34,759 nucleotides of DNA. It comes from Caulobacteraceae bacterium. GTDB lineage: Bacteria > Pseudomonadota > Alphaproteobacteria > Caulobacterales > Caulobacteraceae. Positions 6,451 through 31,888 of the stretch are shown piece by piece. The position numbers and the translations under genes were made by a program. Below the pieces are notes generated by a model, which was not told the DNA's origin, ran no database searches, and saw nothing but the letters and a program-made list of their open reading frames with translations. How positions within the stretch are numbered: position 1 is the stretch's first letter; each line of letters opens with the position of its first letter. Location of the stretch: assembly GCA_003165275.1 (NCBI GenBank), contig PLSW01000385.1, positions 1 through 34,759 on the forward strand, given 5' to 3'.

Positions 6451-7449
6451 TCAGGTTGTCCGCGCCGCCGCCCGCTCGGCGGACAGGCGGGTTCCGTGCC
6501 AGCGCCGGAAGGCCCGCGACAGGGCGCTGGTCTGCGAGAACTGCAGGATCTCGGCGACCGCGGCGGCCGAAAGGCGGCTGTCGCGCACATAGTAGCGCGC
6601 CAGGTCCGCCCGGACCCGGTCGCGGATATCCACAAAGTGGCGCCCCTCGTCCGCCAGGCGCCGCTGCAGCGTGCGGGCGGTCAGGCCGAGCGCCGCGGCG
6701 ACGTCGGCCAGTTCGCAGTCGCCGAAGGGCAGCAGCGCCCGCACGGCGATCTCGGCCCGGTTGGTGACGCCGCGGGACAGCCGCGCGGGCCCTGCCGGCG
6801 CCTGGACCGCAACCGCCGGCGACGGTTCGCCCGCCCCGCTCAGGGGACGGCGAAGAGCGTCGGCGTCAACCAACAGGGCGTTGCGGTCCGCGTCGAAATC
6901 GATCCCACCGCCGAACAGGCGCTGGTGCAGGGAATTATCCAGCGGCGCGGCGTGCCGGAACGACACCGATCGCGGCCGCCAGGCCGGAATCACCCGGCGG
7001 ACCTCGTTGACCACGATGCCGAAGCCCAGTTCCACCGTCTGGCGCTGCGAGGCGCCGGCGCCGGTGGCCAGGTCGTAGACGATCCACTGCCCCTCGTCGT
7101 CCGGCTCCAGGGAAACCAGGGCCCCCTGGGTGTGCTGCGGAAACACGCGCGCCAGCCGCTGCAGCAGTTCGGCGAAGGTGCCGCTGGCGTTCAGCTGCGG
7201 CCACAGGGGCCCGAACAGGGTCAGGGCCTGGCGCGACGACAGGCGCAGGCCGAAGGTCGGGCATTCGCAGCGCCTGGCCGCCAGCTCGATGAAGCCCACG
7301 AAAGCGTCGATGCGCACGGGAAAGTCGGGATCGCGGAAGGCCGCGGGGTCCACTCCAGCCTCGCGGGCCAGGGCGCGCGGATCGCCGCCCAGCTCGCCGA
7401 TCAGTTCCTTAGCCCCCTGCAGGGCGCCGCTCCTCACCCATTCCGCCAT
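6451..7449 (-). CDS. AraC-family transcriptional regulator with arabinose-binding-type N-terminal domain
   Basis: A 332-residue regulator. The N-terminal two thirds resemble the AraC 'arabinose-binding' domain found in OruR/ArgR-like and virulence regulators (VDPAAFRDPDFPVRIDAFVGF near the start, then GLRLSSRQALTLFGPLWP). The C-terminus has two helix-turn-helix units, seen as ALGLTARTLQRRLADEG and AAVAEILQFSQTSALSRAFRRWHG. I moved the start from the ORF-track 7545 to the ATG at 7449, because residues before it do not look coding and the family N-terminus begins with EWVRSGAL. It is divergent from the membrane-protein gene at 7564, 114 bp away, and could control that pair or the SDR gene downstream. 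The ligand is unknown. Confidence 0.87.
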   Translation of the reverse strand: MAEWVRSGALQGAKELIGELGGDPRALAREAGVDPAAFRDPDFPVRIDAFVGFIELAARRCECPTFGLRLSSRQALTLFGPLWPQLNASGTFAELLQRLARVFPQHTQGALVSLEPDDEGQWIVYDLATGAGASQRQTVELGFGIVVNEVRRVIPAWRPRSVSFRHAAPLDNSLHQRLFGGGIDFDADRNALLVDADALRRPLSGAGEPSPAVAVQAPAGPARLSRGVTNRAEIAVRALLPFGDCELADVAAALGLTARTLQRRLADEGRHFVDIRDRVRADLARYYVRDSRLSAAAVAEILQFSQTSALSRAFRRWHGTRLSAERAAARTT

Positions 7450-7563
7450 GGCCGTCGCTCCGCGGGATCGAGGTGGGATTGCGCGGGGCGTGGCGCCCGA
7501 AGTCAACATCCGCTTCGCTACTGAGGCTAGGGTCCCTCCCGTCAACCCTGGGGAGGAACCGCC

Positions 7564-7953
7564 ATGGGCTCGTCACGGCCTGGTCTCGTCACACTGTTCT
7601 GCGCCGGTCTGCTGGTCTGCGCCCTGCTCATGGCCTGGGTCGGGTCCATGGCCGCGGGCTATTTCGTCTGCGTCATCGCCCTGGTGCTCGAGGCCGTCCT
7701 CCTGTGGACCGGCCGGTGGCGGCGGACCTTCGAGATCGTGCTGCTGGTCAACCAGGTCAGCGGCCTGCTGTTGATTCTCGACCTCTGGCTCGGCGGCGGG
7801 CTGGGCGACCTCAAGCTCGATATTTCCGGCGTCTGCCTGCTGATCAACCTGGCCGTCGGCGGCCCATTGTTGGCGGTGGCGGCCATCCCCCTGATCCTGT
7901 CCATGCGTTTCGGCGCGCGCCTGCCGGCGTGGTTCGCCGCGCAAGCAGCGTAA
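7564..7953 (+). CDS. Small integral membrane protein
   Basis: A 129-residue, strongly hydrophobic protein with about four predicted membrane segments: LVTLFCAGLLVCALLMAWVG, MAAGYFVCVIALVLEAVLLW, FEIVLLVNQVSGLLLILDLW and LLAVAAIPLILSM. A good ribosome-binding site (GGGGAGGA) precedes the ATG. The gene ends 11 bp before the haem/Vgb-like gene, so the two are probably co-transcribed and may function together, for example as a membrane anchor or electron partner for the exported protein. I do not recognise the family. Confidence 0.75.
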   Translation: MGSSRPGLVTLFCAGLLVCALLMAWVGSMAAGYFVCVIALVLEAVLLWTGRWRRTFEIVLLVNQVSGLLLILDLWLGGGLGDLKLDISGVCLLINLAVGGPLLAVAAIPLILSMRFGARLPAWFAAQAA

Positions 7954-7964
7954 GGGAGCCCGTC

Positions 7965-9767
7965 ATGCTCTACCGCCTCTTCCGTCTCGCCGGCCTGATC
8001 GCCCCCGCCGCCCTGATCCTGGCCGGCGCCCCGTCCTCGGCCGCCAACTTCGTCGGCAAGGTCACCACTCCGGACGGCAAGCCCGCCTATGGCGCCATGG
8101 TCACCGTCTTCTCCGCCGACCGCCAGGTCCGCCAGACCGTCTACACCGCCGAGGACGGGTCCTACGCCATCCGCACCGACATGGCCGGGGCGCTGACGGT
8201 CCGCGCCCGCCTGTCGGGCTTCGACGACGCCAGCCTCGGGGTCACCGCCGGCGCCGACCAGACCCAGCCGGTCAGCCTGCGTCTCGCCGGCTTCGCCGAC
8301 ACCGAAAGCGCCAACGAGGCCCTGTCGGCCTCGGCCTTCAACGCCCGGCTACCGTGGAAGAACCTCAAGCGGGACCGGCGGGCCTTCATCAGCCAGTGCA
8401 ACTACTGCCACCAGCTGGGCAACCTCACCACCCGATCCGCCCGCAGCCCGCACGACTGGATGGTCGAGATCAACAAGATGGAGGGCATCCTGGCCCTGCC
8501 CTCGGCGCGGGAAAAGCGGGTGTTCGCCGACACCCTGTCCCGCGGCTTTGACGGGGTTCCCTTCGCCGCCGTCCAGACCTACGGCGCCAGCGCCCAGCTG
8601 GCCCGGGCCAAGGTCCGCGAATGGAGCGTGGGCGACGACTACACCTTCATCCACGACGCGGACGTCGCCAAGGACGGCAAGGTCTATGGCACCGACGAGG
8701 GCCACGATGTGCTGTGGGTGCTGGATCGCCAGTCCGGCCACATCGACCGCTATCCGCTGCCCGCCAGCACCCTGCCCCGGGGCGGCAAGTTCTCGGGAAT
8801 GAAGCTGCCGATCGGCGTCTTCACCGGCAAGCACGGCCCGCACAGCATGGCCCAGACATCCGACGGTCGGATCTGGATCACCAACGCCCTGTCCTCGACC
8901 TTGATGTCCTTCGATCCGCGGACCAAGGCCTTCAAGACCTACGAGGTCGGCCACGACGCCCTCTATCCCCACACCATCCGCGTCGACAGCCACGACATCG
9001 TCTGGTTCACCATCGTCGCCTCCAACCAGATCGGCCGGTTCGACCCGAAGACTGAACAGATGACCGTGATCCGCCTGCCGTCCAACGGCTTCATCCGTTG
9101 GACCTCGGACATGCTGTTTCCGACCCTGATGCGGATCGGCAGCTGGTTCCCGGACCAGGCGGTGCACCTGAACCTCTCCACCCACCGGATGTTCGGCTTC
9201 TCGATCCTGGCCTTTCCCTATGGCATCGACGTCAATCCGAAGGACGGCTCGATCTGGTACGCCAAGCTCTACGCCTCCAGGATCGGGCGGATCGATCCGA
9301 AGACCCTGAACATCCAGGAGTGGGAGACCCCCATGAAGGGGCCGCGCCGCCCGCGCTTTGACGCATCGGGCGTGCTGTGGATCCCCGCTTTCGACGACGG
9401 GGGGCTGATGCGGTTCGACCCGGCGACCCAGGCCTTCCAGGGCTTCAAGATCCCGCCGATCGGCAAGGGCGAGTATGAAACGCCGTACGCCCTTAACGTC
9501 GATCGGCGCACCGGCGATATTTGGCTGGCGGCGAACAATTCCGACCGCATCCTGCGCTTCACCCCGGCGACCCGGACCTTCTTCAGCTACCCCAGCCCGA
9601 CCAGGGTGACGGTGCTGCGGGACTTCTCGTTCACCGACGACGGCCAGGTCTGCGCAAGCTCCTCGAACCTGCCCTCCTATGCCATCGAGGGCGGCCGCGG
9701 CGGCATCATCTGCCTTGAGCCAGAGGGGGGCGACAAGGACCGCCGGGCGCTAGGCGGCGCGAACTGA
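7965..9767 (+). CDS. Secreted carboxypeptidase-regulatory-like / haem c (CxxCH) / Vgb-like propeller protein
   Basis: A 600-residue exported protein. Residues 1-27 form a signal peptide (LIAPAALILAGAPSSAA). Residues 28-105 resemble a carboxypeptidase-regulatory-like beta-sandwich (GKVTTPDGKPAYGAMVTVFS). Cys145, Cys148 and His149 form CNYCH, a c-type haem attachment motif in an otherwise short cytochrome-like segment. From about residue 205 to the end there are repeated propeller blades of the streptogramin-lyase (Vgb) type, such as GRIWITNALSSTLMSFDP and GDIWLAANNSDRILRFTP. AGGGAG precedes the ATG at 7965; the ORF-track start at 7473 runs through the upstream gene in another frame. Automatic annotation would probably call it virginiamycin B lyase, but the haem motif and periplasmic location argue for a redox or sensing role. 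Its substrate is unknown. Confidence 0.82.
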   Translation: MLYRLFRLAGLIAPAALILAGAPSSAANFVGKVTTPDGKPAYGAMVTVFSADRQVRQTVYTAEDGSYAIRTDMAGALTVRARLSGFDDASLGVTAGADQTQPVSLRLAGFADTESANEALSASAFNARLPWKNLKRDRRAFISQCNYCHQLGNLTTRSARSPHDWMVEINKMEGILALPSAREKRVFADTLSRGFDGVPFAAVQTYGASAQLARAKVREWSVGDDYTFIHDADVAKDGKVYGTDEGHDVLWVLDRQSGHIDRYPLPASTLPRGGKFSGMKLPIGVFTGKHGPHSMAQTSDGRIWITNALSSTLMSFDPRTKAFKTYEVGHDALYPHTIRVDSHDIVWFTIVASNQIGRFDPKTEQMTVIRLPSNGFIRWTSDMLFPTLMRIGSWFPDQAVHLNLSTHRMFGFSILAFPYGIDVNPKDGSIWYAKLYASRIGRIDPKTLNIQEWETPMKGPRRPRFDASGVLWIPAFDDGGLMRFDPATQAFQGFKIPPIGKGEYETPYALNVDRRTGDIWLAANNSDRILRFTPATRTFFSYPSPTRVTVLRDFSFTDDGQVCASSSNLPSYAIEGGRGGIICLEPEGGDKDRRALGGAN

Positions 9768-16498: not shown

Positions 16499-18166
<1,668 letters not shown>

Positions 18167-18173
18167 CGGGCGA

Positions 18174-19007
18174 TCACCTGGGCTGGAGGGCGAAGGCCAC
18201 GCAGGCCTTGAGAACGTCGGTCAGCACCCCGCGCATCGGCGCGGCGCGGGCGGGGTCGTAGGCGGTGGGCCAGGCGGCCGGCGTGGGCGGCGCCGCTGGC
18301 TCGTCCATGTAGCCGCGGCAGGCCAGCTCCATCTGGATGGCGTGGACGCCCCGCCCCGGCGCGCCGTAGTGACGGGTGGTCCAACCGCCCTTGAACCGGC
18401 CGTCGGTCACGTGGGGAAGGCCGCTGGCCGCGCAGATCGCCGCCACCGCCGCGCTCAGCAGCGCATCGCAAGCGGCGCCGCTGTTCGTGCCGATGTTGAA
18501 CTGGGGCAGTTCGCCCTCAAACAGCCGCGGAATGCGCGAGCGGATCGAGTGGGCGTCATAGAGGACGACCCGACCGTGGCGCGCGCGCAGGCGCTCGATC
18601 TGCCGGGTCAACGCATCATGGTAGGGATCGAAATAGGCCGACCGCCGCGCGGCGATCTCCCCCGCGCCCGGCGTCTCGCCCGGCCGATAGAGCGGCTCGC
18701 CGTCAAAAGTGGTGGTCGGGCAAAGCTCGGTGGTCGCCTGTCCCGGATAGAGGGATGCGCCGCTGGGATCGCGGTTGACGTCGATCACCGTGCGGCTGAT
18801 CGCCGTGCGCACCGTGGTCGCGCCCAGATCGGCCGCAAAGGCGTAGAGGCGGTCCACCCACCAGTCGGCGTCGCGGCAGGCGAGCCAGGGGGAGGCGAGA
18901 CCGGGGGCGATGTCGGCGGGGATTTCAGTCCCGGTGTGGGGAAAGGCGACGATCAGGGGCGCGTCCCCTTGCCTCACATCCAACCAGGACGGATCGGCGG
19001 GCGTCAT
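18174..19007 (-). CDS. hutG: N-formylglutamate deformylase
   Basis: A 277-residue N-formylglutamate amidohydrolase, which releases formate and glutamate in the last step of the five-step histidine route. Family blocks are clear: [11 protein letters not shown] near the start, [20 protein letters not shown] in the middle and [13 protein letters not shown], which supply the metal ligands. This is the deformylase type, not the arginase-like formiminoglutamase also called HutG; the presence of hutF divergently upstream agrees. It overlaps hutH by 4 bp and is followed 7 bp later by hutU. Confidence 0.95.
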
Positions 19008-20551
19008 TTCGCGAGGTCCACGCCAGGTAGGTCCACGCCTGCCGCGGCGATCACCGCGCCATCCCGAACCAGGGCCACGGCGGCCGCGAGATCGGGATGC
19101 ATGTGCCGGTCCTCGTCGAGATGGGGCACGTCCCGGCGCAGGCGCGCGCGCACCGCCTCCAGGGGACCGCTCGAGGTCAGGGGCGCATGGAAATCGCAGC
19201 CCTGCGCCGCCGCCAGCAACTCGATCGCCACCACCGCGCAGGCGTTTTCCGCCATGCCCAGCAGCCGCCGGGCCCCGTGGGCGGCCATGGAGACGTGGTC
19301 CTCCTGGTTGGCGGAGGTGGGGATGGAATCGACGCTGGCCGGATAGGCCTTCTGCTTGTTCTCCGACACCAGGGCCGCGGCGGTCACCTGGGGGATCATG
19401 AAGCCGGAATTCAGCCCCGGCCTGGGGGTCAGGAAGGCCGGCAAGCCGGACAGGGCCGGATCGACCAGCATGGCGATGCGCCGCTCGGCCAGGGAGCCGA
19501 TCTCGCAGATGGCCAGGGCGATCATGTCGGCGGCGAAGGCCACCGGCTCGGCGTGGAAGTTGCCGCCGGACAGCGCCTCGGCCTGGCCGTCATCGCACTG
19601 GAAGATCAAGGGGTTGTCTGTGACGCCGTTGGCCTCGTCCTCCAAGGTCCGCGCCGCCTGGCGCAGCACGCCCAGGGCCGCGCCCATGACCTGCGGCTGA
19701 CAGCGCAGGCAGTAGGGATCCTGCACCCGCTCATCATCCTGCCGGTGCGAGGCGCGGATGGCCGAGCCCGCCATCAGGACCCGCAGGGTCTCGGCGGCCT
19801 CGATCTGGCCCGCGTGGCGGCGCAGGGCGTGGATACGCGGGTCGAACGGGGTGTCGGATCCCTTTGCCGCCTCGGTGGCCATGGCGCCCGTGACAAGGGC
19901 CGACTGGAACAGGCGCTCGGCCTCGAACAGGCCGGCAAGGGCGTTGGCGGTGGAGAACTGGGTGCCGTTCAGCAGCGCCAGGCCCTCTTTCGGCCCGGGC
20001 TCAAGCGGCCGGAGCCCCGCCTGTGCGAGGGCCGCCTCGGCGGGAAGGACCGCGCCGCCGACGATGATGTCGCCGACGCCGATCATCGCCGCGGCCATAT
20101 GGGCCAGGGGCGCGAGGTCGCCCGAGGCGCCCACTGAACCCTGGCAGGGGATCACCGGGACAAGGTCCTGGACCAGCATGGCCTCAAGCAGCGCCACGGT
20201 GGCCGGCGCGACCCCGGAGGCGCCCTGCGCCAGGCTAGCCAGCTTCAGCGCCAGCATCAGCCGGGCGATGGGCTTGGGCATGGCCTCGCCGACGCCGGCG
20301 GCGTGGGACAGGACGATGTTGCGCTGGAGCCGGGCGAGATCCCCGTCGGCGATACGGACGTTGGCCAGCTTCCCGAAACCGGTGTTGACCCCATAGACCG
20401 GCTCGCCGCGCGCCAGGATCACCGCCACGGCGGCGGCGCTTCGGGCGATTGCCGGCGCGGCCAGGGGCGACAGGCGCACCGCCGCGCCGCGATAAATCGC
20501 CCGCCACTGATCGAGGCGAACGTCACCCGGTATGAGAACCAAGGCGCTCAT
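19004..20551 (-). CDS. hutH: Histidine ammonia-lyase (histidase)
   Basis: A 515-residue histidase that deaminates histidine to urocanate. The MIO cofactor triad Ala142-Ser143-Gly144 sits in [16 protein letters not shown], at the same numbering as the Pseudomonas putida enzyme. That agreement, together with a 4-bp ATGA overlap with hutI, fixes the start at 20551 rather than the 60-residue longer ORF-track start at 20731. [12 protein letters not shown] near the N-terminus carries the active-site Tyr loop. It shares a 4-bp overlap with hutG downstream. Confidence 0.98.
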
Positions 20552-21765
20552 GGCGCTTCGCCGTTCCAGACGCGGGCGTGAAGGGGATTGTAGCCCATCC
20601 GGTAGACCAGCTCCGCCGGCCGCTCGATGTCCCAGATCGCCAGGTCGCAACGCTTGCCGGCCTCCAACGTGCCGATATCCGCCGAGCGGCCCAGGGCGCG
20701 GGCGGCTTCGCGCGTGACGCCGGCGAGGCACTCATCCACCGTCAGGCGGAACAGGGTCGCGGCCATGTTCATGGTCAAGAGCAGCGAGGTCAGCGGCGAG
20801 GTGCCGGGGTTGCAGTCCGTTGCCAGCGCCATCGTCACGCCCCGCGCTCGGAGCGCCTCGATGGGCGGAAGGCGGGTCTCCCGCACGAAATAGAAGGCGC
20901 CCGGCAGCAGGGTCGCCACCACCCCCGCCCGCGCCATGGCGGCCGCGCCGGTCTCATCCAAATGTTCCAGATGATCCGCCGACAGGGCGCCGAAAGCCGC
21001 CGCCAGGGACGCACCTTGGCTGTTGGAGAGCTGCTCGGCGTGCAGCTTGACCGGCAGGCCGTTCGCCTTGGCCGCCTCAAACACCCGGCGGACCTGGGTC
21101 GGGGTGAAGGCGATGGTCTCGCAAAAGGCGTCGACCGCGTCGGCGAGGCCCTGCGCCGCCGCGGCCGGGATGATCTCGCGGCAGACGAGGTCGATGTAGC
21201 CGTCCGCGTCCCCTGCGAATTCCGGCGGCAGGGCGTGGGCGGCCAGCAGCGTCGTGGTGATGGTCACATCGCGCGCGTCCCCCAGGGCGCGGGCGGCGCG
21301 CAGGGATTTCAACTCGTCCGCGAGGGTCAGCCCGTAGCCCGATTTGACCTCGACTGTGGTCGCGCCCTCGGCGATTAGGGCGTCCAGGCGCGGCAGGGCC
21401 GCGGCGACCAACTGGCCCTGGCTCGCCGCCCGGGTCGCCCGCATGGTGGAGACAATGCCGCCGCCGGCGCGGGCGATCTCCTGGTACGATGCGCCCGCGA
21501 GCCGTTGTTCGAACTCACCGGCGCGGTCGCCGCCGAAGACCAGGTGGGTGTGCGGATCGATCAGGCCGGGGGTGATCCAGCGCCCTTCGCAGGCCGTGAT
21601 CCGCGGGGCGTCCAGGGCCGGCGCCTCGGCGGCCGGCCCGGCGTAGACGATGCGGCCGGCCCGCGCGGCGACCAGTCCGTCTTCGACAACACCGAGGCCC
21701 GGCAGGCCCGGCGCCAGGGTCGCAAGGCGGGCGCCGCGCCAGATATGGTCGCAAAGCTCAGCCAT
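20548..21765 (-). CDS. hutI: Imidazolonepropionase
   Basis: A 405-residue amidohydrolase-fold enzyme that opens imidazolone propionate to N-formimino-L-glutamate. Metal ligands are seen in [16 protein letters not shown] and later in [21 protein letters not shown] and [11 protein letters not shown]. The ATG at 21765 follows AAGGGAGG at about 11 nt and was chosen over the ORF-track start at 21813, giving the usual family length. It is the first gene of hutIHGU, with the palindromic HutC-type operator 57 bp upstream. Confidence 0.97.
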
Positions 21766-21822
21766 ACGCCGCGCTGCCTCCCTTGAGCGTCCAACCGCTT
21801 TAGACTTGGCCAACCGGCGGAT

Positions 21823-21836
21823 AATGTCTAGACATT
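21823..21836. promoter_or_regulatory. HutC-type operator palindrome
   Basis: AATGTCTAGACATT is a perfect 14-bp palindrome in the 97-bp gap between divergent hutI and hutF. Its core GTCTAGAC fits the GntR/HutC-subfamily pattern GTNTANAC. It overlaps a GATAAT hexamer (21820-21825) that could be a -10 element for hutF. A single site here would let HutC control both operons, including its own gene. Role inferred. Confidence 0.8.
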
Positions 21837-21862
21837 TAATCGACAGTCGCTAGGGGATTGCC

Positions 21863-23227
21863 ATGCGATCGCTGTGGTTCGAGACGGCCCTGCTGACCGA
21901 CGGATGGGCCAAGGCCGTGCGGCTGACCCTAGACGGTGGCGTGATCGCGCGGGTCGAGCGAGACGCCGCGCCGGCGCCGGCCGACGAGCGCCACAGCGTC
22001 GCCGTCCCAGGTCTTTGCAACGTCCACAGCCACGCATTCCAGCGCGGCATGGCGGGGTTGACCGAATATCGCGGCCCAACCGCCGACAACTTCTGGACCT
22101 GGCGGGAGCTGATGTACCAGTTCCTCGATCGCATCGCGCCGGAGGATGTCGAAGCCATCGCCGCCCAGGCCTATGTGGAGATGCTGGAGACCGGCTTCAC
22201 CCGTGTGGGCGAGTTCCACTACCTGCATCACGACGCGAACGGCGCGCCCTACGCCGACATCGCCGAGATGGCGCACCGGATCGTGGCCGCGGCCGGGGAA
22301 ACCGGGATCGGCCTGACACTGCTGCCGGTGTTCTACGCCCACGGCGATTTCGGCGGCGCGGCGCCGAGCCCCGGCCAGCGGCGCTTCCTCAACGATCCGG
22401 ACCGTTTCGCCCGCCTGTTCGACGCCAGCCGCGCCGCGCTGGCTCCCCTGCCGGACGCCAACCTGGGTGTCGCGCCCCACAGCCTGCGCGCGGTGACGCC
22501 GGAGGAATTGGCGCAAATCCGCGCCCTCGCTCCCAACGGCCCGGTGCACGCCCACGCCGCCGAACAGACCCGCGAGGTCGACGATTGCGTGGCCTGGAGC
22601 GGGCGGCGGCCGGTGGAATGGTTGCTGGAAAACGCCGCCGTCGACCGGTCCTGGTGCCTGATCCACGCCACCCACCTGACGCCCGCGGAGACTCAAGGCT
22701 TGGCGGCGAGCGGCGCGGTCGCCGGGCTGTGCCCGATCACCGAGGCCAACCTCGGCGACGGATTCTTTCCCACGCGGGACTTTCTCGCCGCGGGCGGCCA
22801 GTTCGGTGTCGGCACCGACTCCAATATCCTGATCGATCCGGCCCAGGAGCTGCGTGGCCTGGAGTATGCGCAGCGGCTCTCCCTTCGCGCCCGCAACGTG
22901 CTGGGCTCACCAGACCGGCCCTCCACCGGGGCGAGCCTTTTCGTCGGCGCGCTCGAAGGCGGAGCCAAGGCGCTGGGGCAGTCGACCTCCGGACTGTCGA
23001 TCGGCGCGAGCGCGGACATCGTCAGCCTGGATCCGGAGCATCTGGCCCTCTACGGCCGTACCGGCGACGCCCTACTGGACGGCTGGCTGTTCGCCGCCAG
23101 CACGCCCGGGGTCGTAAAGACCGTCTGGCGCGGCGGAGACCGCGTCGTCGCGGACGGGCGGCACCGTGACGCCGAGCGCATCGGTCGGCGCTATCGCCAA
23201 ACCCTGGACCGGCTGCTGCAGGCGTGA
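21863..23227 (+). CDS. hutF: Formimidoylglutamate deiminase
   Basis: A 454-residue amidohydrolase-superfamily enzyme that converts N-formimino-L-glutamate to N-formyl-L-glutamate and ammonia, feeding HutG. Metal-binding HSHAFQRGMAG, the catalytic-region HAAEQTREVDD, IHATHLTP and the Asp of VGTDSNI are in the usual order. The length is typical. AGGGG lies about 7 nt before the ATG. It is the first gene of the plus-strand hutFC pair and overlaps hutC by 4 bp (GTGA). Confidence 0.96.
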   Translation: MRSLWFETALLTDGWAKAVRLTLDGGVIARVERDAAPAPADERHSVAVPGLCNVHSHAFQRGMAGLTEYRGPTADNFWTWRELMYQFLDRIAPEDVEAIAAQAYVEMLETGFTRVGEFHYLHHDANGAPYADIAEMAHRIVAAAGETGIGLTLLPVFYAHGDFGGAAPSPGQRRFLNDPDRFARLFDASRAALAPLPDANLGVAPHSLRAVTPEELAQIRALAPNGPVHAHAAEQTREVDDCVAWSGRRPVEWLLENAAVDRSWCLIHATHLTPAETQGLAASGAVAGLCPITEANLGDGFFPTRDFLAAGGQFGVGTDSNILIDPAQELRGLEYAQRLSLRARNVLGSPDRPSTGASLFVGALEGGAKALGQSTSGLSIGASADIVSLDPEHLALYGRTGDALLDGWLFAASTPGVVKTVWRGGDRVVADGRHRDAERIGRRYRQTLDRLLQA

Positions 23228-23943
23228 GCGTCACCGCCCCCCCCGTCCAGACCCTCGACCGGCGCATTCGTTTTGACCTGGAGCAGCGCATCCGCTCCGG
23301 CGACTGGGCGCCAGGACGGCGGATTCCCACCGAGCTCGATCTGATGGCGGACTACGGCTGTTCGCGGATGACCGTCAGCAAGGCGATCACCGCCCTTGTT
23401 CAGTCGGGGCTGATTGAGCGGCGCAAGAAGGCGGGGTCGTACGTGGCGCGGCCGCGCGTGCAGACTGCGGTCCTTGAAATCCCCGACATTCCGGCGCTGA
23501 TCGCAAGCTCCGGCGAAACTTATCGGTTTCAAAGGCTTAGCCGTACGGTGCGCGCCCTGAACCTGGGCGACCCGGGCGAGGCGGGCCTATCCGCATCCGG
23601 GCCCGTGCTTGAAGTTTCAGGTCTCCATTTCGCTGGCGACGCGCCATTCGCCCTGGAGCGGCGGATTTTGAACCTCGCCGCAGTCCCGGAGGCTGAGGGC
23701 CTGTCCTTCGAGAACGAAGCCCCGGGATCCTGGCTGCTCCACCACGTGCCCTGGACCGAGGCGCGTCACCGCATCGCTGCGATCAATGTGGATGGAGCGA
23801 GCGCCAACCATTTGCAGATTTCGCGCGAGCAGGCCTGCCTGCAGGTGGAGCGCCACACGTTTCGCCTGGGCGAATGGATCACCTTTGCCCGACTGATCTA
23901 TCCGGGCGATCGGTACGATCTGACCGCGGCGTTCCGGCCGTGA
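23224..23943 (+). CDS. hutC: GntR/HutC-family repressor of histidine utilisation
   Basis: A 239-residue transcriptional repressor that in this family senses urocanate. Residues 12-80 form the winged helix-turn-helix (LEQRIRSGDWAPGRRIPTEL, CSRMTVSKAITALVQSGLIE), and residues about 100-237 a UTRA ligand domain (SGLHFAGDAPFALERRILN). The GTG start overlaps the hutF stop. Linkage to all other hut genes and the palindrome at 21823 supports the name over other GntR-type roles. Confidence 0.94.
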   Translation: MSVTAPPVQTLDRRIRFDLEQRIRSGDWAPGRRIPTELDLMADYGCSRMTVSKAITALVQSGLIERRKKAGSYVARPRVQTAVLEIPDIPALIASSGETYRFQRLSRTVRALNLGDPGEAGLSASGPVLEVSGLHFAGDAPFALERRILNLAAVPEAEGLSFENEAPGSWLLHHVPWTEARHRIAAINVDGASANHLQISREQACLQVERHTFRLGEWITFARLIYPGDRYDLTAAFRP

Positions 23944-24503: not shown

Positions 24504-24749
24504 ATGATAACTGCGGCTCAGATTCGCGCGGCCCGCGCCTTGGTCAGTCTTGATCAGCGCGAACTTGCGGCCCTGTCAGGCCTGTCTCTGCCGACCATTC
24601 AGCGCATGGAAGCAAGCGACGGCGTTATCCGCGGCAACGTGGACTCGTTGATGAAACTCATCGGCGCCCTGAACGCAGTGGGGGTGGAATTGATCAGCGA
24701 CGGCGCCGCGAGCCCCGGCGGGGGACGGGGCGTTCGCCTGAAGCCATGA
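24504..24749 (+). CDS. Small XRE-family helix-turn-helix regulator
   Basis: An 81-residue protein that is essentially one lambda-Cro/XRE DNA-binding domain: TAAQIRAARALVSLDQRELA followed by ALSGLSLPTIQRMEASDG. A short tail ends RGVRLKP, common in small alphaproteobacterial XRE proteins. Its stop overlaps the hyfB start by 4 bp (ATGA), so it is the first cistron of the hyf-like operon and probably its regulator. It has no separate sensor domain, so if it responds to a signal this must come from a partner or from its abundance. The ribosome-binding site is weak. Confidence 0.85.
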   Translation: MITAAQIRAARALVSLDQRELAALSGLSLPTIQRMEASDGVIRGNVDSLMKLIGALNAVGVELISDGAASPGGGRGVRLKP

Positions 24750-26773
24750 CCCTGCTCAGCCAGACGACCGTGGAGTTGGTGTTGGAATGCGTGGCGGCCC
24801 TTATCGGCCTGTCCATCCTTTCCATTGCGGCGGGACGGCGGCTGGCGACGTCCGTGGTCTACGCGGGATGTTTGGTTGTCTGCCTCCTGGGACTGACGGT
24901 GGCGCTCGCCCATCTGCTGGGCGCGGGCGACGCCTCAAGCACGGCGGTGCTGCCCCTCGGCCTGCCCTGGATTGGCGCGCGGTTTCGCCTGGACGCGTTG
25001 AGCGCGGTGTTCCTGGTCGTCGTCAACCTCGGCGGAGCGGCGGCCAGCCTCTTTGCCATTGGCTATGGCCGGCACGAGGACGAGCCGCAGCGCGTTCTGC
25101 CCTTCTATCCGGCCTTTCTGGCCGGCATGAATCTGGTGGTGCTGGCGGACGACGCGTTCAGCTTCCTGGTCGCCTGGGAGTTCATGTCGCTGAGTTCCTG
25201 GGCCCTGGTGATGGCGCGCCACCGCGATCCCGAAAATCGCCGCGCCGGCTACATCTATCTGTTGATGGCCTCGTTTGGCGCGCTTTGCCTGTTGCTGGCC
25301 TTCGGCCTGCTGGCGGGTCCTGGCGGCGGCTACAGTTTCGACGCGGTGCGCGCCCATACGCCGACGGCGGTGATCGCCGCGCTCGTCCTTTGCTTGGCGG
25401 TCCTTGGCGCAGGCTCCAAGGCCGGGCTCGTCCCCCTGCATGTGTGGTTGCCCCTGGCCCATCCGGCGGCGCCCAGCCATGTCTCGGCGCTTATGAGCGG
25501 GGTTATGACCAAGGTCGCGATCTACGCCTTCGTCCGCATCGTATTCGACCTTCTCGGCCCCCCCGCCCCGTGGTGGAGCCTGCTGATCCTGTTTCTGGGC
25601 GGCGTCACAGCGGTGCTGGGCATCCTCTATGCGCTCATGCAGACCGACATGAAGCGCATGCTAGCCTACAGCACGGTGGAGAACGTCGGCATCATCTTCA
25701 TCGGCCTGGGTCTGGGGCTGGCCTTCAAGGCCCAACACCTGACCTGGGCGGCGGCCTTGGCGGTGACGGCGGCCCTCTTCCACGTATTCAATCACTCGCT
25801 GTTCAAGAGCCTGCTGTTCTTTGGCGCCGGCGCCGTCCAGGGCGCGACCGGCGAACGGGATCTGGAGCGCCTTGGCGGCCTGATCCATCGCATGCCTCAG
25901 ACCGCCTTCGCGATCCTGATCGGCTGCATCGCCATTTCGGCGCTGCCGCCGTTGAACGGCTTCGCCTCCGAGTGGCTGGCGTTTCAGGCGATCCTGCTGA
26001 GCCCTCAGCTTGACGCCCCGGCGCTGAAGATCCTGGTTCCGGCGATCGGCGGGCTGCTGGCGCTCGCCGCCGCGCTAACGGCGGCCGCGTTCGTACGGGC
26101 CTACGGCGTCGGCTTCCTCGGACGGCCGCGCTCGTCCGCCGCGCAGACCGCGCAGGAGACCGATCGGTGGTCCCTCGCGGCGATGTTCATCCTGGCGGCG
26201 CTGTGTGTGATCGTCGGCGTCCTGCCGGGCCTGGTGATCGACGCCATCGCGCCGGCGGTGCGCGCCATGGTCGGCGCGCCTATGCCGTCCCAGCTCGCCC
26301 AGCCCTGGCTTTCGATCGTGCCCGTCGCGGAAAGCCGCAGCTCTTACAACGGGCTCCTGGTGCTGCTGTTCATCGCCACATCGGCGAGCCTCGCCGCGGT
26401 CACCATCCACCGGCTGGCCTCCCGCGCCCTGCGGCGGGCGCCGGCGTGGGACGGCGGTTATCCCGAGCCGAGTCCCGCCACCCAGTACACCGCCGGCAGT
26501 TTCGCCCAGCCAATCCGCCGGGTGTTCGCGTCCATCATATTCCGGGCGCGTGAGCAGGTGACGATGCCGCCGCCAGGCGACATGGCGCCCGCGCGGTTCA
26601 GGCTGGAGCTGCACGACCCGATCTGGGAGACCGTCTATGCGCCGATCGCCGGGGTCATCGGCTTCGTCGCGGATCGGCTGAACCACCTGCAGTTCCTGAC
26701 CATCCGCGTCTACCTGTCGCTGGTCTTCCTGGCCCTGGTCGGCCTGTTGCTGGTGCTGGCCGTATGGATCTGA
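24746..26773 (+). CDS. hyfB: Hydrogenase-4 component B-like proton-translocating subunit (NuoL/MrpA-type)
   Basis: A 675-residue polytopic membrane protein of the HyfB/HycC branch of antiporter-like complex I subunits. Key charged residues of the proton path are kept: Glu145 in FLVAWEFMSLSSWALV and Lys225 in GAGSKAGLVPLHVWLPLAHP. The family block PSHVSALMSGVMTKVAIYAF follows, then MKRMLAYSTVENVG. A C-terminal extension with EPSPATQYTAGSFAQPIRR is typical of HyfB. It overlaps the XRE gene (4 bp) and hyfC (10 bp). I infer that it moves protons as part of the complex encoded by the following genes. Confidence 0.93.
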   Translation: MTLLSQTTVELVLECVAALIGLSILSIAAGRRLATSVVYAGCLVVCLLGLTVALAHLLGAGDASSTAVLPLGLPWIGARFRLDALSAVFLVVVNLGGAAASLFAIGYGRHEDEPQRVLPFYPAFLAGMNLVVLADDAFSFLVAWEFMSLSSWALVMARHRDPENRRAGYIYLLMASFGALCLLLAFGLLAGPGGGYSFDAVRAHTPTAVIAALVLCLAVLGAGSKAGLVPLHVWLPLAHPAAPSHVSALMSGVMTKVAIYAFVRIVFDLLGPPAPWWSLLILFLGGVTAVLGILYALMQTDMKRMLAYSTVENVGIIFIGLGLGLAFKAQHLTWAAALAVTAALFHVFNHSLFKSLLFFGAGAVQGATGERDLERLGGLIHRMPQTAFAILIGCIAISALPPLNGFASEWLAFQAILLSPQLDAPALKILVPAIGGLLALAAALTAAAFVRAYGVGFLGRPRSSAAQTAQETDRWSLAAMFILAALCVIVGVLPGLVIDAIAPAVRAMVGAPMPSQLAQPWLSIVPVAESRSSYNGLLVLLFIATSASLAAVTIHRLASRALRRAPAWDGGYPEPSPATQYTAGSFAQPIRRVFASIIFRAREQVTMPPPGDMAPARFRLELHDPIWETVYAPIAGVIGFVADRLNHLQFLTIRVYLSLVFLALVGLLLVLAVWI

Positions 26774-27726
26774 TCGGCGATCTGGCCATTCAGGGCGCGG
26801 AGATGCTGCTGGTGCTGGCTTTGGCGCCGCTGCTGACCGGCTTCGTGCGCAAGATCAAGGCTCGGCTGTCGCGGCGGCGGGGCCCGCCCCTCATCCAGCC
26901 CTATCGCGACCTTCTGCGCCTGACCCGCAAGGAGGTCGTGCTCGCGGACAACGCCTCGTGGCTGTTCCGCGTGGCGCCCTACCTGATCTTCGCCGCCACC
27001 TGGGTGGCCGCCGCGCTGGTGCCCACCTTCGCCACGGGCCTGATGTTCAGCTGGTCGGCCGATCTGATCGCGATCATCGCCCTCCTCGGCAGCGCGCGCT
27101 TCTTTCTGGCGCTGGCCGGAATGGACATCGGCACCAGCTTCGGCGGCATCGGCGCCAGCCGGGAAGTCATGATAGCCTCCCTCGCCGAACCGGCGATGAT
27201 CATGATCGTCTTCTCGCTCGCGCTCCTGGCCGGTTCGACCCAGCTGTCGAGCATCGCCGGCTATATGCTCAGCTCCAATGTCGGCCTGAGGGTCACCCTG
27301 GCGCTGGCGCTGGTGGCGCTGATCATGGTGGCGATCGCCGAGAACAGCCGCATCCCGATCGACAATCCGTCGACGCACCTGGAGCTGACCATGGTCCACG
27401 AGGCCATGGTGCTCGAATACTCGGGGCGGCATCTCGCGGTGCTGGAGCTGGCCGCCTCGCTGAAACTCCTCCTTTACGTCTCACTGATCGCCTGCGTTTT
27501 CGTGCCCTGGGGACTTGCGCCGGTAGGGGCTGGCGTTGAGGCGCACCTGATCGGTCTGGCGGCGTTCGCCGGCAAGCTGGCTGTCGCCGGCTTCCTGCTG
27601 GCCGTGTTCGAGACTGCCGTCGCCAAGATGCGCGTGTTCCGGGTTCCTGACTTTCTGGGCGCGGCCCTGATGCTGGGGCTGCTCGGCACACTGCTTCTGT
27701 TCGTCTCGCGGGGGGGGTTGCGATGA
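26764..27726 (+). CDS. hyfC: Hydrogenase-4 component C-like membrane subunit (NuoH-type)
   Basis: A 320-residue NuoH/HycD-like subunit with about eight membrane segments, forming the membrane seat for the peripheral arm. Family blocks are RRRGPPLIQPYRDLLRLTRK at residues 37-56 and IAENSRIPIDNPSTHLELTM, which carries conserved acidic residues, followed by VHEAMVLEYSGRHLA. Length is close to HyfC (about 315-322). It overlaps hyfB by 10 bp and hyfE by 4 bp. Confidence 0.93.
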   Translation: MDLIGDLAIQGAEMLLVLALAPLLTGFVRKIKARLSRRRGPPLIQPYRDLLRLTRKEVVLADNASWLFRVAPYLIFAATWVAAALVPTFATGLMFSWSADLIAIIALLGSARFFLALAGMDIGTSFGGIGASREVMIASLAEPAMIMIVFSLALLAGSTQLSSIAGYMLSSNVGLRVTLALALVALIMVAIAENSRIPIDNPSTHLELTMVHEAMVLEYSGRHLAVLELAASLKLLLYVSLIACVFVPWGLAPVGAGVEAHLIGLAAFAGKLAVAGFLLAVFETAVAKMRVFRVPDFLGAALMLGLLGTLLLFVSRGGLR

Positions 27727-28385
27727 CCGGCCTGTCCTTCGATGTCGCGCACCTGCTGGCCGGCGGTCTGGTGCTGGCCAGCTTTATGCTGCTCTACCAG
27801 GATCGGCTCAGCGCCCTGGTCAACACCTTCGCCCTTCATGCCGTCGTGCTGTCTCTGTCGGTCGCCTGGCAGGCGCTGATCCAGGATGCGCCGCACCTCT
27901 ATGTGACGGCGGCCATCGCACTGGCGTTCAAGGCCGTGGTCATCCCGACGGCCCTGCATCGGATCATCAAACGGCTGGGCATCCACCGCGAGATTGAAAC
28001 CGTCGTCGGCGTCGGACCGACCATGCTGGCCGGAATCGGACTGGTGGCGCTGGCGATGGTGGTGATGCTCCGCGTCGCCCCGGGCGCGGACCGACTGGCG
28101 GGCGAGGACCTCGCCTTCGCCCTCTCCGTCGTGCTGCTCGGCATGCTGATCATGGTCACCCGCCGCAATGCGGTCAGCCTGGTGATCGGCTTCATGTCGC
28201 TGGAGAACGGCCTGGTGCTGGCCGCCACCGGCGCCAAGGGCATGCCGTTGGTGGTGGAGATCAGCGTCGCCTTCTCTGTGTTGATCGCCTTCATTGTCAT
28301 CGGCGTCTTCCTGTTCCGAATCCGCGAACGGTTCGACACCGTCGACGTCAGCGCGCTCGACCGGTTCCGGGAAGAACGCAGATGA
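27723..28385 (+). CDS. hyfE: Hydrogenase-4 component E-like membrane subunit (NuoK-type)
   Basis: A 220-residue membrane protein of the HyfE/HycP type, whose C-terminal half resembles NuoK. The conserved Glu lies in GFMSLENGLVLAATG, and the N-terminal half contains FKAVVIPTALHRIIKRLGI, a usual HyfE block. Length matches HyfE (about 216). It overlaps both neighbours by 4 bp. Part of the proton channel region between the NuoH-like and antiporter-like subunits, by family knowledge. Confidence 0.9.
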   Translation: MTGLSFDVAHLLAGGLVLASFMLLYQDRLSALVNTFALHAVVLSLSVAWQALIQDAPHLYVTAAIALAFKAVVIPTALHRIIKRLGIHREIETVVGVGPTMLAGIGLVALAMVVMLRVAPGADRLAGEDLAFALSVVLLGMLIMVTRRNAVSLVIGFMSLENGLVLAATGAKGMPLVVEISVAFSVLIAFIVIGVFLFRIRERFDTVDVSALDRFREERR

Positions 28386-29830
28386 GTCTCACCGGCTTCA
28401 ATGCGATCCACGCCATTCTGGTCATCCCGGTGCTGGCCGCGGCGGGGCTGGCCCTGTCGTCAAACTATCGCGTCAGCGCACGGATCAATGTGCTGGCGAC
28501 CGCACTGACCTTTGGCGTCGCCGCCTCGCTGCTATTCGTGCGTCCGCCGGTCGGCCTCTACCTGCAGGTCGACGACCTCAGCGTGGTCTTCATCGTGCTG
28601 AACACCTTCGTTGGCTTCACCGCCAGCCTGTTCAGCGCCAGCTATATCGCCCACGAAATCGAGATCGGCCGGCTGACCCAGACGCGGCTGCGCTTCTATC
28701 ACGCCATGTACCAGGTGCTGATGTTCGGCATGAATCTGGCGCTTGTCTCCAACAACCTCGGCCTGATGTGGGTGGCGATCGAACTGGCGACCCTCACGAC
28801 CGTCGCGATGGTGGGCATCTATCGCACGCATGAGGCCATCGAGGCGGCGTGGAAGTATTTCATCCTCGGCAGCGTCGGCATCGCCCTGGCCCTGTTCGGC
28901 ACCATACTGGTCTATGTGGCGGCCCGGCCGGTTGTCGGCGAAGGCCTGCAAGGCATGGTCTGGACGGTGCTGATGGGCAAGGTGGCGCACTTCGATCCCG
29001 CCCTGCTCAATGTCGCCTTCGTCTTCCTGCTGCTGGGCTACGGCACCAAGGTCGGTCTGGCCCCGCTCCACGCCTGGCTGCCCGACGCCCACGCCGAGGG
29101 CCCCACGCCGATCTCGGCGGTGCTGTCAGGCCTGCTGCTCAACGTGGCCCTCTATGCGGTGCTGCGCTTCAAGATGCTGCTGGCCGCCAATCCGGCCGCC
29201 CTGGCGCCGGGCCCCTTGATGGTCACCATGGGACTGGTCTCCGTGGTCTTCGCCGCCTTCATGCTCTACCGGCGCCGCGACATAAAACGCATGTTCGCCT
29301 ATTCCTCCATCGAGCACATGGGGATCATCGTCTTCGCCTTCGGGATGGGTGGTCCCCTGGCCAACTTCGCGGGCCTGCTGCACATGACCATGCACAGCCT
29401 GACCAAGTCGGCGATCTTCTTCAACGTCGGCCACATCGCCCAGGTCAAGGGCAGTCAACGGATCGCCGATATCCGCGGCCTTACGGTCACCCATCCCGTG
29501 CTCGGCTGGAGCCTCGTGGTCGGGGTGATGGCCATCGCCGGCCTGCCGCCGTTCGGCATCTTCACCAGCGAGTTCCTGGTGGTCAGCTCGACCTTTGCAC
29601 GCCAGCCGCTGCTGGCGATTCCGCTGGTGTTCGGGATCATCGTCGCCTTCGGCGCCTTGCTTCAGAAGCTGCAGGGCCTCGCCTTCGGCGACCCGTCGCC
29701 GGGAACCGCGCCCGCCCACGCCTCCTACCTGCCGATGTTCGCCCATTTTGCCCTGGTGCTGGCGGTCGGCCTCTACTTCCCGCCGCTTCTCACCACCTGG
29801 TTCCAGCATGTGGCGAGACTGCTGGGATGA
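28382..29830 (+). CDS. hyfF: Hydrogenase-4 component F-like proton-translocating subunit (NuoM/N-type)
   Basis: A 482-residue antiporter-like subunit with about 14 membrane segments. The proton-path residues are kept: Glu134 in WVAIELATLTT, Lys223 in GYGTKVGLAPLHAWLPDAHA, and Lys342 in MHSLTKSAIFF. The block GPTPISAVLSGLLLNVALYA is characteristic. FGIFTSEFLVV near residue 390 provides a further acidic residue. The complex thus has two antiporter-like pumps (this and hyfB). It overlaps hyfE by 4 bp and ends 10 bp before the large-subunit ATG. Confidence 0.94.
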   Translation: MSLTGFNAIHAILVIPVLAAAGLALSSNYRVSARINVLATALTFGVAASLLFVRPPVGLYLQVDDLSVVFIVLNTFVGFTASLFSASYIAHEIEIGRLTQTRLRFYHAMYQVLMFGMNLALVSNNLGLMWVAIELATLTTVAMVGIYRTHEAIEAAWKYFILGSVGIALALFGTILVYVAARPVVGEGLQGMVWTVLMGKVAHFDPALLNVAFVFLLLGYGTKVGLAPLHAWLPDAHAEGPTPISAVLSGLLLNVALYAVLRFKMLLAANPAALAPGPLMVTMGLVSVVFAAFMLYRRRDIKRMFAYSSIEHMGIIVFAFGMGGPLANFAGLLHMTMHSLTKSAIFFNVGHIAQVKGSQRIADIRGLTVTHPVLGWSLVVGVMAIAGLPPFGIFTSEFLVVSSTFARQPLLAIPLVFGIIVAFGALLQKLQGLAFGDPSPGTAPAHASYLPMFAHFALVLAVGLYFPPLLTTWFQHVARLLG

Positions 29831-29840
29831 GCGCTCAACC

Positions 29841-31343
29841 ATGACCGCGCTCAGCGAAATAGCCGCCAGGGGCGGCGAAGTTGCCGGTCATCGGCCCTGG
29901 CGACGGCTGGTCGTCGACGCCGAAGCCTGGGTTGCGGCCAGCGAGGCCCTCGCGACCGGCGACCTGTCGCTGCTCAGCTTGTGGGGCGAGCCGGGCTGGG
30001 CGCACATGGCCGTCATGGGCGCGGACGCCGCCGATCTCGCTGTGCTCAGCCTCGAATGTCCCGACCAGCGCTATCCGTCGGTGGGCGCGCGCCATGCGCC
30101 GGCGATCCGGCTGGAACGCCGTCTGTTCGACCTCTACGGGCTTGAGGCCGTCGGCGCCCTCGACGATCGGCCCTGGCTCGATCATGGCCGCTGGGACGCA
30201 CGCCATCCCCTGGGCCAGGCCTTGGCGCCGAGCCCCGTCGAGCCCTATCGCTTCCTGCCCGCCGAGGGCGAGAGCCTGCACCAGATCGCCGTCGGCCCTG
30301 TCCACGCCGGCATCATCGAGCCCGGCCATTTCCGCTTCACGGCCAACGGCGAGGCCGTGGTGCGGCTGGAGGCGCGTCTCGGCTATCTGCATCGTGGCCT
30401 TGAGGCGCGCATGGTGGGCGAAACCCCCGACGCGGCCGCGCGGCTCGCCGCCCGCGCCTGCGGCGACAGCACCGTCGCCTATTCCATCGCCTTCGCCCGC
30501 GCGGCGGAGGCGGCGGCCGGCGTGGCGGCGCCGGAGCGCTCCCTCTGGCTGCGCGCGCTGATGGCCGAGCTGGAACGCCTCGCCAACCACCTGGGCGATA
30601 TTGGCGCGATCTGCAACGACGCCTCGTTCGGCCTGATGCACGCCCATTGCGGCGTTCTGCGCGAGCAAGTGCTGCGCGCCTGCGCCGCCGCGTTCGGCCA
30701 TCGGCTGATGATGGACGCGGTGTCGCCGGGCGGCGTTTCGGCGGACCTGGGGCCGGATGGGCGGCAGCGCCTCTCGGCCCTCGTCACAACCATTCGCGAC
30801 CGGTTCCCGCTGCTGGTGGCGGTCTATGACGACACCGCTTCGCTGCAGGATCGGACGGTCGGAACCGGCGTCCTGACGCCGGCGCTGGCCCGCCGTTTCG
30901 CGGCCGGCGGCTATGTGGGCCGCGCGTCCGGCCGCGCCTTCGACGCCCGTCGAAGCCTGGTCTACTCGCCCTACGATCAGCTCGCATTCGAGACGCCGAC
31001 CCGCGAGGCGGGCGACGTGAACGCGCGGGTGTGGGTCCGCATCGACGAGGTGACGCAGAGCCTCAATCTGATCGAACAGATCCTCGATCGCCTGCCCGGC
31101 GGCCGTATCCACAGCGAGATTCCCGCGGTGTCCGGCGAAGGGATGGCGCTGGTCGAGGGGTTCCGGGGAGATGTCCTGGCATGGCTGCGACTAGCCGAGG
31201 GCCGCGTTGAGCGCTGTCACCTGCGCGACCCGTCCTGGTTCCAGTGGCCGCTATTGGAGGTCTGCATTGAGGGGAACATCGTCGCCGACTTCCCGCTCTG
31301 CAACAAGTCGTTCAACTGCGCCTATGCGGGGGTCGATCTCTGA
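29841..31343 (+). CDS. hyfG: Hydrogenase large-subunit-like protein (NuoC-NuoD fusion) lacking the NiFe site
   Basis: A 500-residue fusion of a NuoC-like N-terminal domain (IRLERRLFDLYGLEAVGALD near residue 95) and a NuoD/hydrogenase-large-subunit domain starting at about VGPVHAGIIEPGHFRF. In NiFe enzymes the first metal motif is RxCGxCxxxH; here it reads RACGDSTVAY, with Cys207 kept but Ser210 and Tyr214 in place of Cys and His. The C-terminal DPCxxC motif reads DPSWFQ, with Ser465 and Gln468. Three of four NiFe cysteines are therefore missing and hydrogenase activity is very unlikely. The Tyr of complex I that contacts quinone also appears absent, being Gly208 by alignment. The start is the ATG at 29841; the ORF-track start at 29595 runs through hyfF in another frame. 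Function: unknown redox role in an Ehr-like complex. Confidence 0.9.
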   Translation: MTALSEIAARGGEVAGHRPWRRLVVDAEAWVAASEALATGDLSLLSLWGEPGWAHMAVMGADAADLAVLSLECPDQRYPSVGARHAPAIRLERRLFDLYGLEAVGALDDRPWLDHGRWDARHPLGQALAPSPVEPYRFLPAEGESLHQIAVGPVHAGIIEPGHFRFTANGEAVVRLEARLGYLHRGLEARMVGETPDAAARLAARACGDSTVAYSIAFARAAEAAAGVAAPERSLWLRALMAELERLANHLGDIGAICNDASFGLMHAHCGVLREQVLRACAAAFGHRLMMDAVSPGGVSADLGPDGRQRLSALVTTIRDRFPLLVAVYDDTASLQDRTVGTGVLTPALARRFAAGGYVGRASGRAFDARRSLVYSPYDQLAFETPTREAGDVNARVWVRIDEVTQSLNLIEQILDRLPGGRIHSEIPAVSGEGMALVEGFRGDVLAWLRLAEGRVERCHLRDPSWFQWPLLEVCIEGNIVADFPLCNKSFNCAYAGVDL

Positions 31344-31888
31344 TGTCCATGCCCAGGCTCCTGGCCGAAGGCCTGCTCAAGTCAGCGCTGACCGAGGCCT
31401 CGCCGAGCCCCGACGACGAGGCCCTGACGCAGCTTGCCGCGCGGGTGGACACCGCTGCCCATCGGCGGCTGGGCCGCAGCCTCGCCATCCGGCAGGTCGA
31501 CGCCGGTTCCTGCAACGGCTGCGAGCTGGAGATTCACGCCCTGGCCAATGCGTTCTACGATCTTGAGCGGTTTGGGCTGCGGTTTGTCGCCTCGCCGCGG
31601 CACGCCGATGTCCTGCTCGTCACCGGCCCCGTCACCCGCAACATGCGCGAGGCCCTCGAGCGCACGAACAATGCGACGCCAGGGCCCAAGTGGATCGTGG
31701 CGTGCGGCGACTGTGCGGCGGGAACAGGTCTGTTCAACGGTGGATATGCCTGCCATGGCGGTGTCGCCGACGTCCTGCAGGTGGATGTTGTCATTCGAGG
31801 CTGTCCACCGAGCCCGACGGCGTTGTTGATGGGGCTATTGGCCGTGTTGGACGGCGGGGCGACAAAGCCGACCCATCCCGCCATGTAG
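31343..31888 (+). CDS. hyfI: Hydrogenase-4 component I-like [4Fe-4S] small subunit (NuoB-type)
   Basis: A 181-residue NuoB/hydrogenase-small-subunit homologue that holds the proximal [4Fe-4S] cluster. Ligand candidates are Cys57 and Cys60 in GSCNGCELEIHAL, Cys124 in ACGDCAAGTG and Cys154 in RGCPPSP, in the order and spacing of group 4 hydrogenases. It is shorter than E. coli HyfI (about 250), lacking the C-terminal extension. It overlaps the large-subunit stop by one base (TGATG) and is the last gene of the operon. A weak CGACA/TGTCG hairpin lies 4 bp past the stop. Confidence 0.92.
   Translation: MSMPRLLAEGLLKSALTEASPSPDDEALTQLAARVDTAAHRRLGRSLAIRQVDAGSCNGCELEIHALANAFYDLERFGLRFVASPRHADVLLVTGPVTRNMREALERTNNATPGPKWIVACGDCAAGTGLFNGGYACHGGVADVLQVDVVIRGCPPSPTALLMGLLAVLDGGATKPTHPAM

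Follow-up and report, generated by a model that had tools for sequence, protein, structure and literature searches.

The 34,759-nucleotide stretch of DNA from a Caulobacteraceae bacterium analysed here (contig PLSW01000385.1, referred to below as the window) carries the operon hyqRBCEFGI. It is a relative of Hyq, which was published from root-nodule bacteria under the name "endo-hydrogenase", and its subunits B, C, E, F, G and I are homologous to those of hydrogenase-4 (Hyf). The sequences of the window and of its relatives indicate that the complex has no NiFe site anywhere in the family, that this site has been swapped for a defined new polar one rather than having decayed, and that the cluster and the pump are intact, with purifying selection acting on the genes and with neither electron-input nor maturation subunits encoded beside them. 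By all such criteria the Hyq complex is to be regarded as real, conserved and functional. It also appears that the Hyq literature (rhizobia) and that on energy-converting-hydrogenase-related complexes (Ehr; Geobacter, mycobacteria and others) deal with one kind of complex, apparently without mutual citation.

The large subunit, HyfG (HyqG), is numbered here from the in-frame codon at position 29829 (subtracting 4 gives the numbering from the Met). Its nearest solved structure, both by profile and by fold (Foldseek), is E. coli HycE, and in the alignment its motif RACGDSTVAY takes the place of RVCGICGFAH in E. coli HycE and HyfG, just as an earlier note on this DNA had matched it to RxCGxCxxxH. 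The same note had taken DPSWFQ for the counterpart of the second ligand motif, DPCxxC, which proved wrong: DPSWFQ is a PS(F/Y) motif that aligns with AATYAN in HycE and HyfG, VPSYMN in locus L143 and TPSFAH in NuoD. The true counterpart is formed by the last 12 residues of the protein, KSFNCAYAGVDL, which align with GSLDPCYSCTDR, so that the NiFe ligand positions 498 and 501 hold Ala and Gly; the Cys of FNC sits one residue ahead of the ligand position.

The replacement extends throughout the family. The orthologues were drawn from unnamed relatives, 80 named genome loci and plasmids, and after removal of duplicates they comprise 121 distinct HyfG proteins, with pairwise identities down to 37%. 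Neither motif retains a CxxC pair in any of them, and the two C-terminal ligand positions are never Cys. Position 214 is Ser in 110 and never Cys, position 498 is Ser in 112, Ala in 7 and Asn in 2, and position 501 is Gly in all 121. The earlier count of one NiFe cysteine left out of four is correct for the window, but the residue in question, C211, is replaced by Ser in 114 orthologues (Cys in 5, Ala in 2), and it is not a retained ligand. Seven residues are invariant (R209, D213, K493, S494, N496, G501 and D503); of these, HycE and NuoD lack D213, K493 and N496. A protease-cleavable C-terminal tail, 32 residues long in HycE and HyfG of E. coli, is lacking in all 127 aligned HyfG rows, and no homologue of the maturation protease HycI was found in the Hyq loci examined. 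Because the same invariant residues recur throughout the orthologues and the tail is missing, the site has been replaced rather than having drifted. An AlphaFold model of HyfG alone has a predicted template modelling score of 0.85, with the pocket loops (136-186 and 477-501, model numbering) at predicted local distance difference test values below 50, where the pocket geometry is unreadable.

The loss of all four ligands could also be expected of a decaying hydrogenase, either a pseudogene or a degraded paralogue, and a 2026 Geobacter paper regards its Ehr as non-functional. The reading frames are however intact, the replacements are shared by 121/121 orthologues, there are family-specific invariants, and the ratio of nonsynonymous to synonymous substitution rates, calculated between the window and locus L148, is 0.14-0.26 over the six genes, pointing to purifying selection; decay is thus hardly credible. 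A local pseudogene, the alternative that the earlier note had raised, is ruled out by the occurrence of the same substitutions in all these distinct orthologues together with ratios well below 1. When the motif columns are left out of the alignment, the resulting tree gives the loss of the NiFe site a single origin, and the window falls in a fully supported clade with Rhizobium johnstonii 3841 (formerly R. leguminosarum; L071), Bradyrhizobium, Rhodopseudomonas and Azospirillum.

Three other site-less loci lie on long branches of this tree. L130 (7375-9488) and L131 (8464-13433), on a very long one, carry a HyfG/HyfI pair in which the site was lost differently (RINAVDSIAH and RINALDSVAH, FGILSTGVDL), with barely recognisable membrane subunits; their host genomes lack HypD, and they are possibly a separate kind of Ehr. 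The third, on a Caballeronia plasmid (L155:4468-11879), has the order C-E-F-G-I-B and the motifs RVSGVDTVAH and FGLTISGCAR. As a separate matter, the HyqG proteins of two Rhizobium entries (CP053209.2 and CP050084.1) are mislabelled "hydrogenase expression protein HypE", which could mislead surveys of hydrogenase maturation.

The [4Fe-4S] cysteines of HyfI and the pump residues were both said in the earlier note to be kept. The former (C57, C60, C124 and C154) are indeed present in 81/81 sequences, and the cluster motif is of the hydrogenase type, CxxC, unlike the adjacent cysteines of NuoB. The pump residues are kept nearly everywhere, in HyfB (E145 in 79/79; K225, K354 and E409 in 78/79; K256 in 76/79) as in HyfF (E134 and K342 in 87/88; K223, K302 and E397 in 86/88), with no sign of random decay among relatives; the reservation concerns HyfF, which has Asn at the position of NuoM Lys265, and since E. 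coli HyfF shares this Asn, it is inherited. E161 and E179 of HyfE are conserved as well. Not everything near the site has been kept, because HyfC, whose best solved relative is HycD of formate hydrogenlyase (FHL), has a rewritten version of the acidic PEAE-type loop seen in NuoH and HycD: PEAE has become PxTH, with an insertion, giving PxTHLELTMxHEAM, in which H205 is found in 81/82 sequences and E207, H212 and E213 in 82/82. By homology this loop would border the cavity between the membrane arm and the large subunit, and for that reason loop and HyfG site seem to have changed in concert.

Hyq loci carry B, C, E, F, G and I only, whereas hyf of E. coli and two distant intact hyf loci (L132 and L133) run from A to J, the latter two with a protease gene nearby. 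Among the 80 named loci compared for their neighbourhoods, the sole clearly conserved neighbour is an XRE-type open reading frame near hyfB, present in about half. No recurrent ferredoxin-type subunit was found in these loci (frames with CxxCxxCxxxC number five, none a conserved neighbour), and electron-input subunits hidden beside the operon were rejected, as none is conserved among loci. That no enzyme, be it a formate dehydrogenase, a sulfur enzyme or any other, is a conserved neighbour in the same 80 loci also bears on the proposal that the emptied pocket oxidises or reduces some other small substrate, in the manner of the polysulfide-reducing MBS or of FDH-Ehr, the Ehr of other lineages that are predicted to partner a formate dehydrogenase. 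The rebuilding of the pocket with Ser, Asp, Lys and Asn would suit such an enzyme; lacking a conserved partner, it is rather unlikely.

In a Rhodococcus plasmid operon the six genes are ordered I-B-C-E-F-G, which we take to be the layout of the mycobacterial Rv0082-Rv0087 as well. The parallel with this mycobacterial set that the earlier note had drawn holds: Rv0081-Rv0087 of M. tuberculosis is named as an EHR complex (PMC6728331). Elsewhere, L144 (907-10159) combines two tandem hyfB genes with a long frame (6636-9653) that apparently fuses HyfF and HyfG, an arrangement that recalls EhrA-1/EhrA-2 of Geobacter.

The distribution of the complex was assessed in an even sample of 349 genomes from the phylum, 62 of which carry it. 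HypD is missing from 40 of the 62 carriers, 16 of those being at least 99% complete. Ten genomes have only 30-34% identical matches; eight of them have HypD, and the other two (G097 and G346) have large subunits likewise without the cysteines. The source genome itself encodes HypD and a separate NiFe hydrogenase large subunit on another contig (C104, L158), and an ordinary NuoD elsewhere. As for nitrogen fixation, nifD was not detected in the source genome (91% complete); it occurs in 10/62 carriers of the phylum sample, where it is not significantly associated with the complex, and in 23/35 named carriers. Hosts of the complex are not only diazotrophs, and on these distributions both HypD and nif are dispensable for it. 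Control by NifA and sigma-54 was also considered as a general feature and rejected, since no paired elements were found in the 36 orthologous upstream regions scanned, nor upstream of the window operon; one perfect -24/-12 match occurs among them, at a locus without nifD.

A good part of this picture has precedents. The operon hyqRBCEFGI of Azorhizobium caulinodans was published in 2009 as an "endo-hydrogenase" (PMC2650096), and Hyq was at first called a NiFe hydrogenase by its authors. In 2012 the same group (Sprecher et al.) reported both CxxC motifs to be missing from HyqG in eight genera, regarded a NiFe site as unlikely, and described three other cysteines as "completely conserved". These correspond to C262, C491 and C497 of the window and are absent from 10, 16 and 14 of the 121 orthologues; a substitute metal site ligated by them is weakened, because none is universal. 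Our literature search found no use of the hyq gene names by other papers. For their part, Ehr are an independently established and accepted class of group-4-hydrogenase-related complexes that have antiporter-like subunits but no NiFe ligands, and for which a coupling of cytoplasmic redox chemistry to ion translocation is only proposed. Since the missing cysteines were noted in 2012 and the class is accepted, novelty is limited; what is new is the joining of Hyq and Ehr, the dispensability of HypD and nif shown above, and the finding that the three cysteines are not universal.

The earlier proposal of an Ehr-like complex that functions without NiFe is thus supported by the family-wide loss, the purifying selection and the conservation of pump and cluster. 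For the reaction, which had been left a blank, the identity of the operon with the published Hyq brings with it strong reported H2 phenotypes to be explained. Tentatively, as a plausible reading short of a probable one, we favour a six-subunit complex that has a single [4Fe-4S] cluster and a complete proton-pump arm, lacks NiFe and works as a proton-coupled oxidoreductase between a soluble carrier and quinone. A one-electron carrier (candidates are ferredoxin and flavodoxin) would dock directly on HyqI, at the place of HyfH/NuoI, and the electron would pass via the cluster to a membrane quinone in the cavity between HyqG, HyqC and HyqI, where the quinone may be held near the rebuilt Asp213, Lys493 and Asn496 of HyqG and His205 and His212 of HyqC. 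Electron transfer would be coupled, reversibly, to proton translocation, so that at low oxygen reductant could be discharged or, alternatively, proton-motive force could be spent in making low-potential electrons.

Some of the evidence weighs against this proposal. In the alignment, the quinone ligands of Thermus Nqo4, His38 and Tyr87, correspond to Ile163 and Gly212 of the window HyfG, and with these ligands missing any quinone would bind differently from that of complex I. Finally, in A. caulinodans lacking hupSL, H2 is reported to be released only if hyq is also deleted (PMC2650096, PMC2930871, PMC3357923): for hupSL hyq versus hupSL the figures in nodules are 27 versus 0.3 umol per g per h, and those in culture 540 versus 16. 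A reaction not involving H2 is difficult to reconcile with these data, and the favoured model leaves them unexplained.

They are the basis of the view of the Azorhizobium group, in which Hyq is an H2:quinone oxidoreductase without Ni-Fe that splits H2 near the [4Fe-4S] cluster by means of side chains or another cofactor. In the same papers (PMC2650096, PMC2930871, PMC3357923), diazotrophic growth is about a fifth slower once hyq is deleted, most of the H2 formed below 1 uM O2 is attributed to hyq, and H2 recycling survives deletion of the entire hup/hyp locus. E164, the counterpart of the hydrogenase proton-path Glu, is moreover kept in 120/121 HyfG. We nevertheless consider H2 chemistry unlikely: the NiFe ligands are missing, the alternative cysteines are not universal and the complex commonly occurs where nifD is absent, while the evidence comes from deletions made in one laboratory, which also remove the regulator hyqR, with no purified activity reported and no complementation found in the portions of the work available. 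The more specific version, with H2 activated in the HyqG pocket of Asp213, Lys493 and Asn496 near the single cluster, independently of any NiFe, FeFe or Fe-guanylylpyridinol site, strikes us as decidedly improbable; if true, it would explain how H2 recycling in Azorhizobium outlasts the loss of the hup/hyp locus.

The presence of one cluster, and of no electron-input subunits at any locus, would also be in line with a redox-gated ion pump or antiporter, in which the lone cluster senses the redox state or O2 and gates the flow of ions through HyfB and HyfF, while HyfG turns over no substrate. A role in pH homeostasis has been suggested for Ehr, and regulation by low oxygen is reported both for hyq, described as NifA-dependent in Azorhizobium, and for the hyc-type Rv0081-87 of mycobacteria (PMC6728331). 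The invariant charged site of HyfG resembles a binding site, which pure gating would not need, and this makes the gated pump unlikely.

Comparison with known systems places the complex among its relatives; sequences of R. johnstonii and Rhodococcus stood in for HyqG of A. caulinodans and Rv0087 of M. tuberculosis. With Hyq of A. caulinodans the window operon shares seven genes in the order R-B-C-E-F-G-I, the missing CxxC motifs and a HyqG of about 500 residues, and R. leguminosarum, a carrier named by the Hyq authors, belongs to the clade of the window; membership in the nif regulon, claimed for A. caulinodans and its relatives, does not fit the window locus, whose host has no detectable nifD and whose operon has no NifA/sigma-54 promoter upstream. 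With Ehr (ehrABCDLS of Geobacter and others; Rv0082-Rv0087) it shares the group-4-hydrogenase homology, the lack of NiFe ligands and antiporter-like subunits with conserved Glu and Lys, but differs in gene order (I comes first in Rhodococcus), and it has no adjacent formate dehydrogenase. Hydrogenase-4/FHL-2 (E. coli hyfA-J) and FHL-1 (HycE, PDB 7Z0S) have homologous B, C, E, F, G and I; unlike them, the window set lacks HyfA, D, H and J, the protease, all NiFe ligands as a conserved set and the C-terminal tail. The core architecture is also that of complex I (NuoB, CD, H, L and M), whose NuoD likewise has empty NiFe ligand positions, whereas the NADH module and NuoI are missing and the quinone ligands are not conserved. 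The features that define a group 4 [NiFe] hydrogenase, namely four Cys ligands, a cleaved tail with its protease and HypD in the carrier genomes, do not hold for the family.

Table 1. The hyq operon of the window and the motifs discussed
Feature	Position	Strand	Evidence or remark
hyqR, XRE-type helix-turn-helix regulator, 81 residues	24504..24749	+	HTH_3 match; stop overlaps hyfB start; hyqR of hyqRBCEFGI (PMC2650096)
HyfB/HyqB, antiporter-like pump subunit, 675 residues	24746..26773	+	NF005086, 884 bits
HyfC/HyqC, NuoH-like subunit (NADHdh/HycD), 320 residues	26764..27726	+	PF00146, E 1.1e-40
HyfC family-specific loop PSTHLELTMVHEAM	27367..27408	+	PEAE/AEAE-type and 3 residues shorter in hydrogenases/NuoH
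HyfE/HyqE, membrane subunit, 220 residues	27723..28385	+	NF008556, E 5.9e-21; weak, 75 bits, below family cut-off
HyfF/HyqF, antiporter-like pump subunit, 482 residues	28382..29830	+	NF005043, 858 bits
HyfG/HyqG, large subunit (NuoCD fusion-like), 500 residues from ATG	29841..31343	+	PF00346 (Complex1_49kDa/NiFe large subunit), E 3.4e-40
HyfG L1 motif RACGDSTVAY, residues 209-218	30453..30482	+	RxCGxCxxxH counterpart
HyfG DPSWFQ, residues 467-472	31227..31244	+	PS(F/Y) motif, not the DPCxxC counterpart
HyfG C-terminus KSFNCAYAGVDL, residues 493-504	31305..31340	+	DPCxxC counterpart; stop codon directly after
HyfI/HyqI, small subunit (NuoB-like, Oxidored_q6), 181 residues, single [4Fe-4S] cluster	31343..31888	+	PF01058, E 2.9e-29

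The six-subunit Hyf-like gene set that the earlier note had placed at 24746-31888 is borne out by family matches for HyfB, C, E, F, G and I and by six uninterrupted frames, all on the + strand, most of which overlap their neighbours by 1-10 bases. Downstream lie genes for an AraC-type regulator and an alpha/beta hydrolase. Directly upstream, at 16499-23943 of the window, is a histidine-utilisation cluster with urocanase, an aromatic amino acid lyase, amidohydrolases including one of the HutF type and a GntR/UTRA regulator. Two plasmids encountered in the survey carry complex I relatives in other settings: in Halalkalicoccus (L157:5659-7305), a lone NuoCD-like protein of 548 residues has no other complex I gene nearby, and in Mycobacterium intracellulare (L156:1-17197), a nuo operon adjoins a NiFe hydrogenase large subunit, HypC and a maturation protease.

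Joining the two literatures gives the Ehr family, whose function is unassigned, a genetic system with strong published phenotypes. Conversely, the claim that Hyq is a hydrogenase meets a sharp problem, in that the site is missing in every orthologue and most of the sampled carriers have neither nifD nor HypD. Asp213, Lys493 and Asn496 of HyqG and His205 and His212 of HyqC are the residues that we offer for testing. Two possibilities are left: the phenotypes reported for Hyq are indirect, or this complex handles hydrogen without a known metal site.

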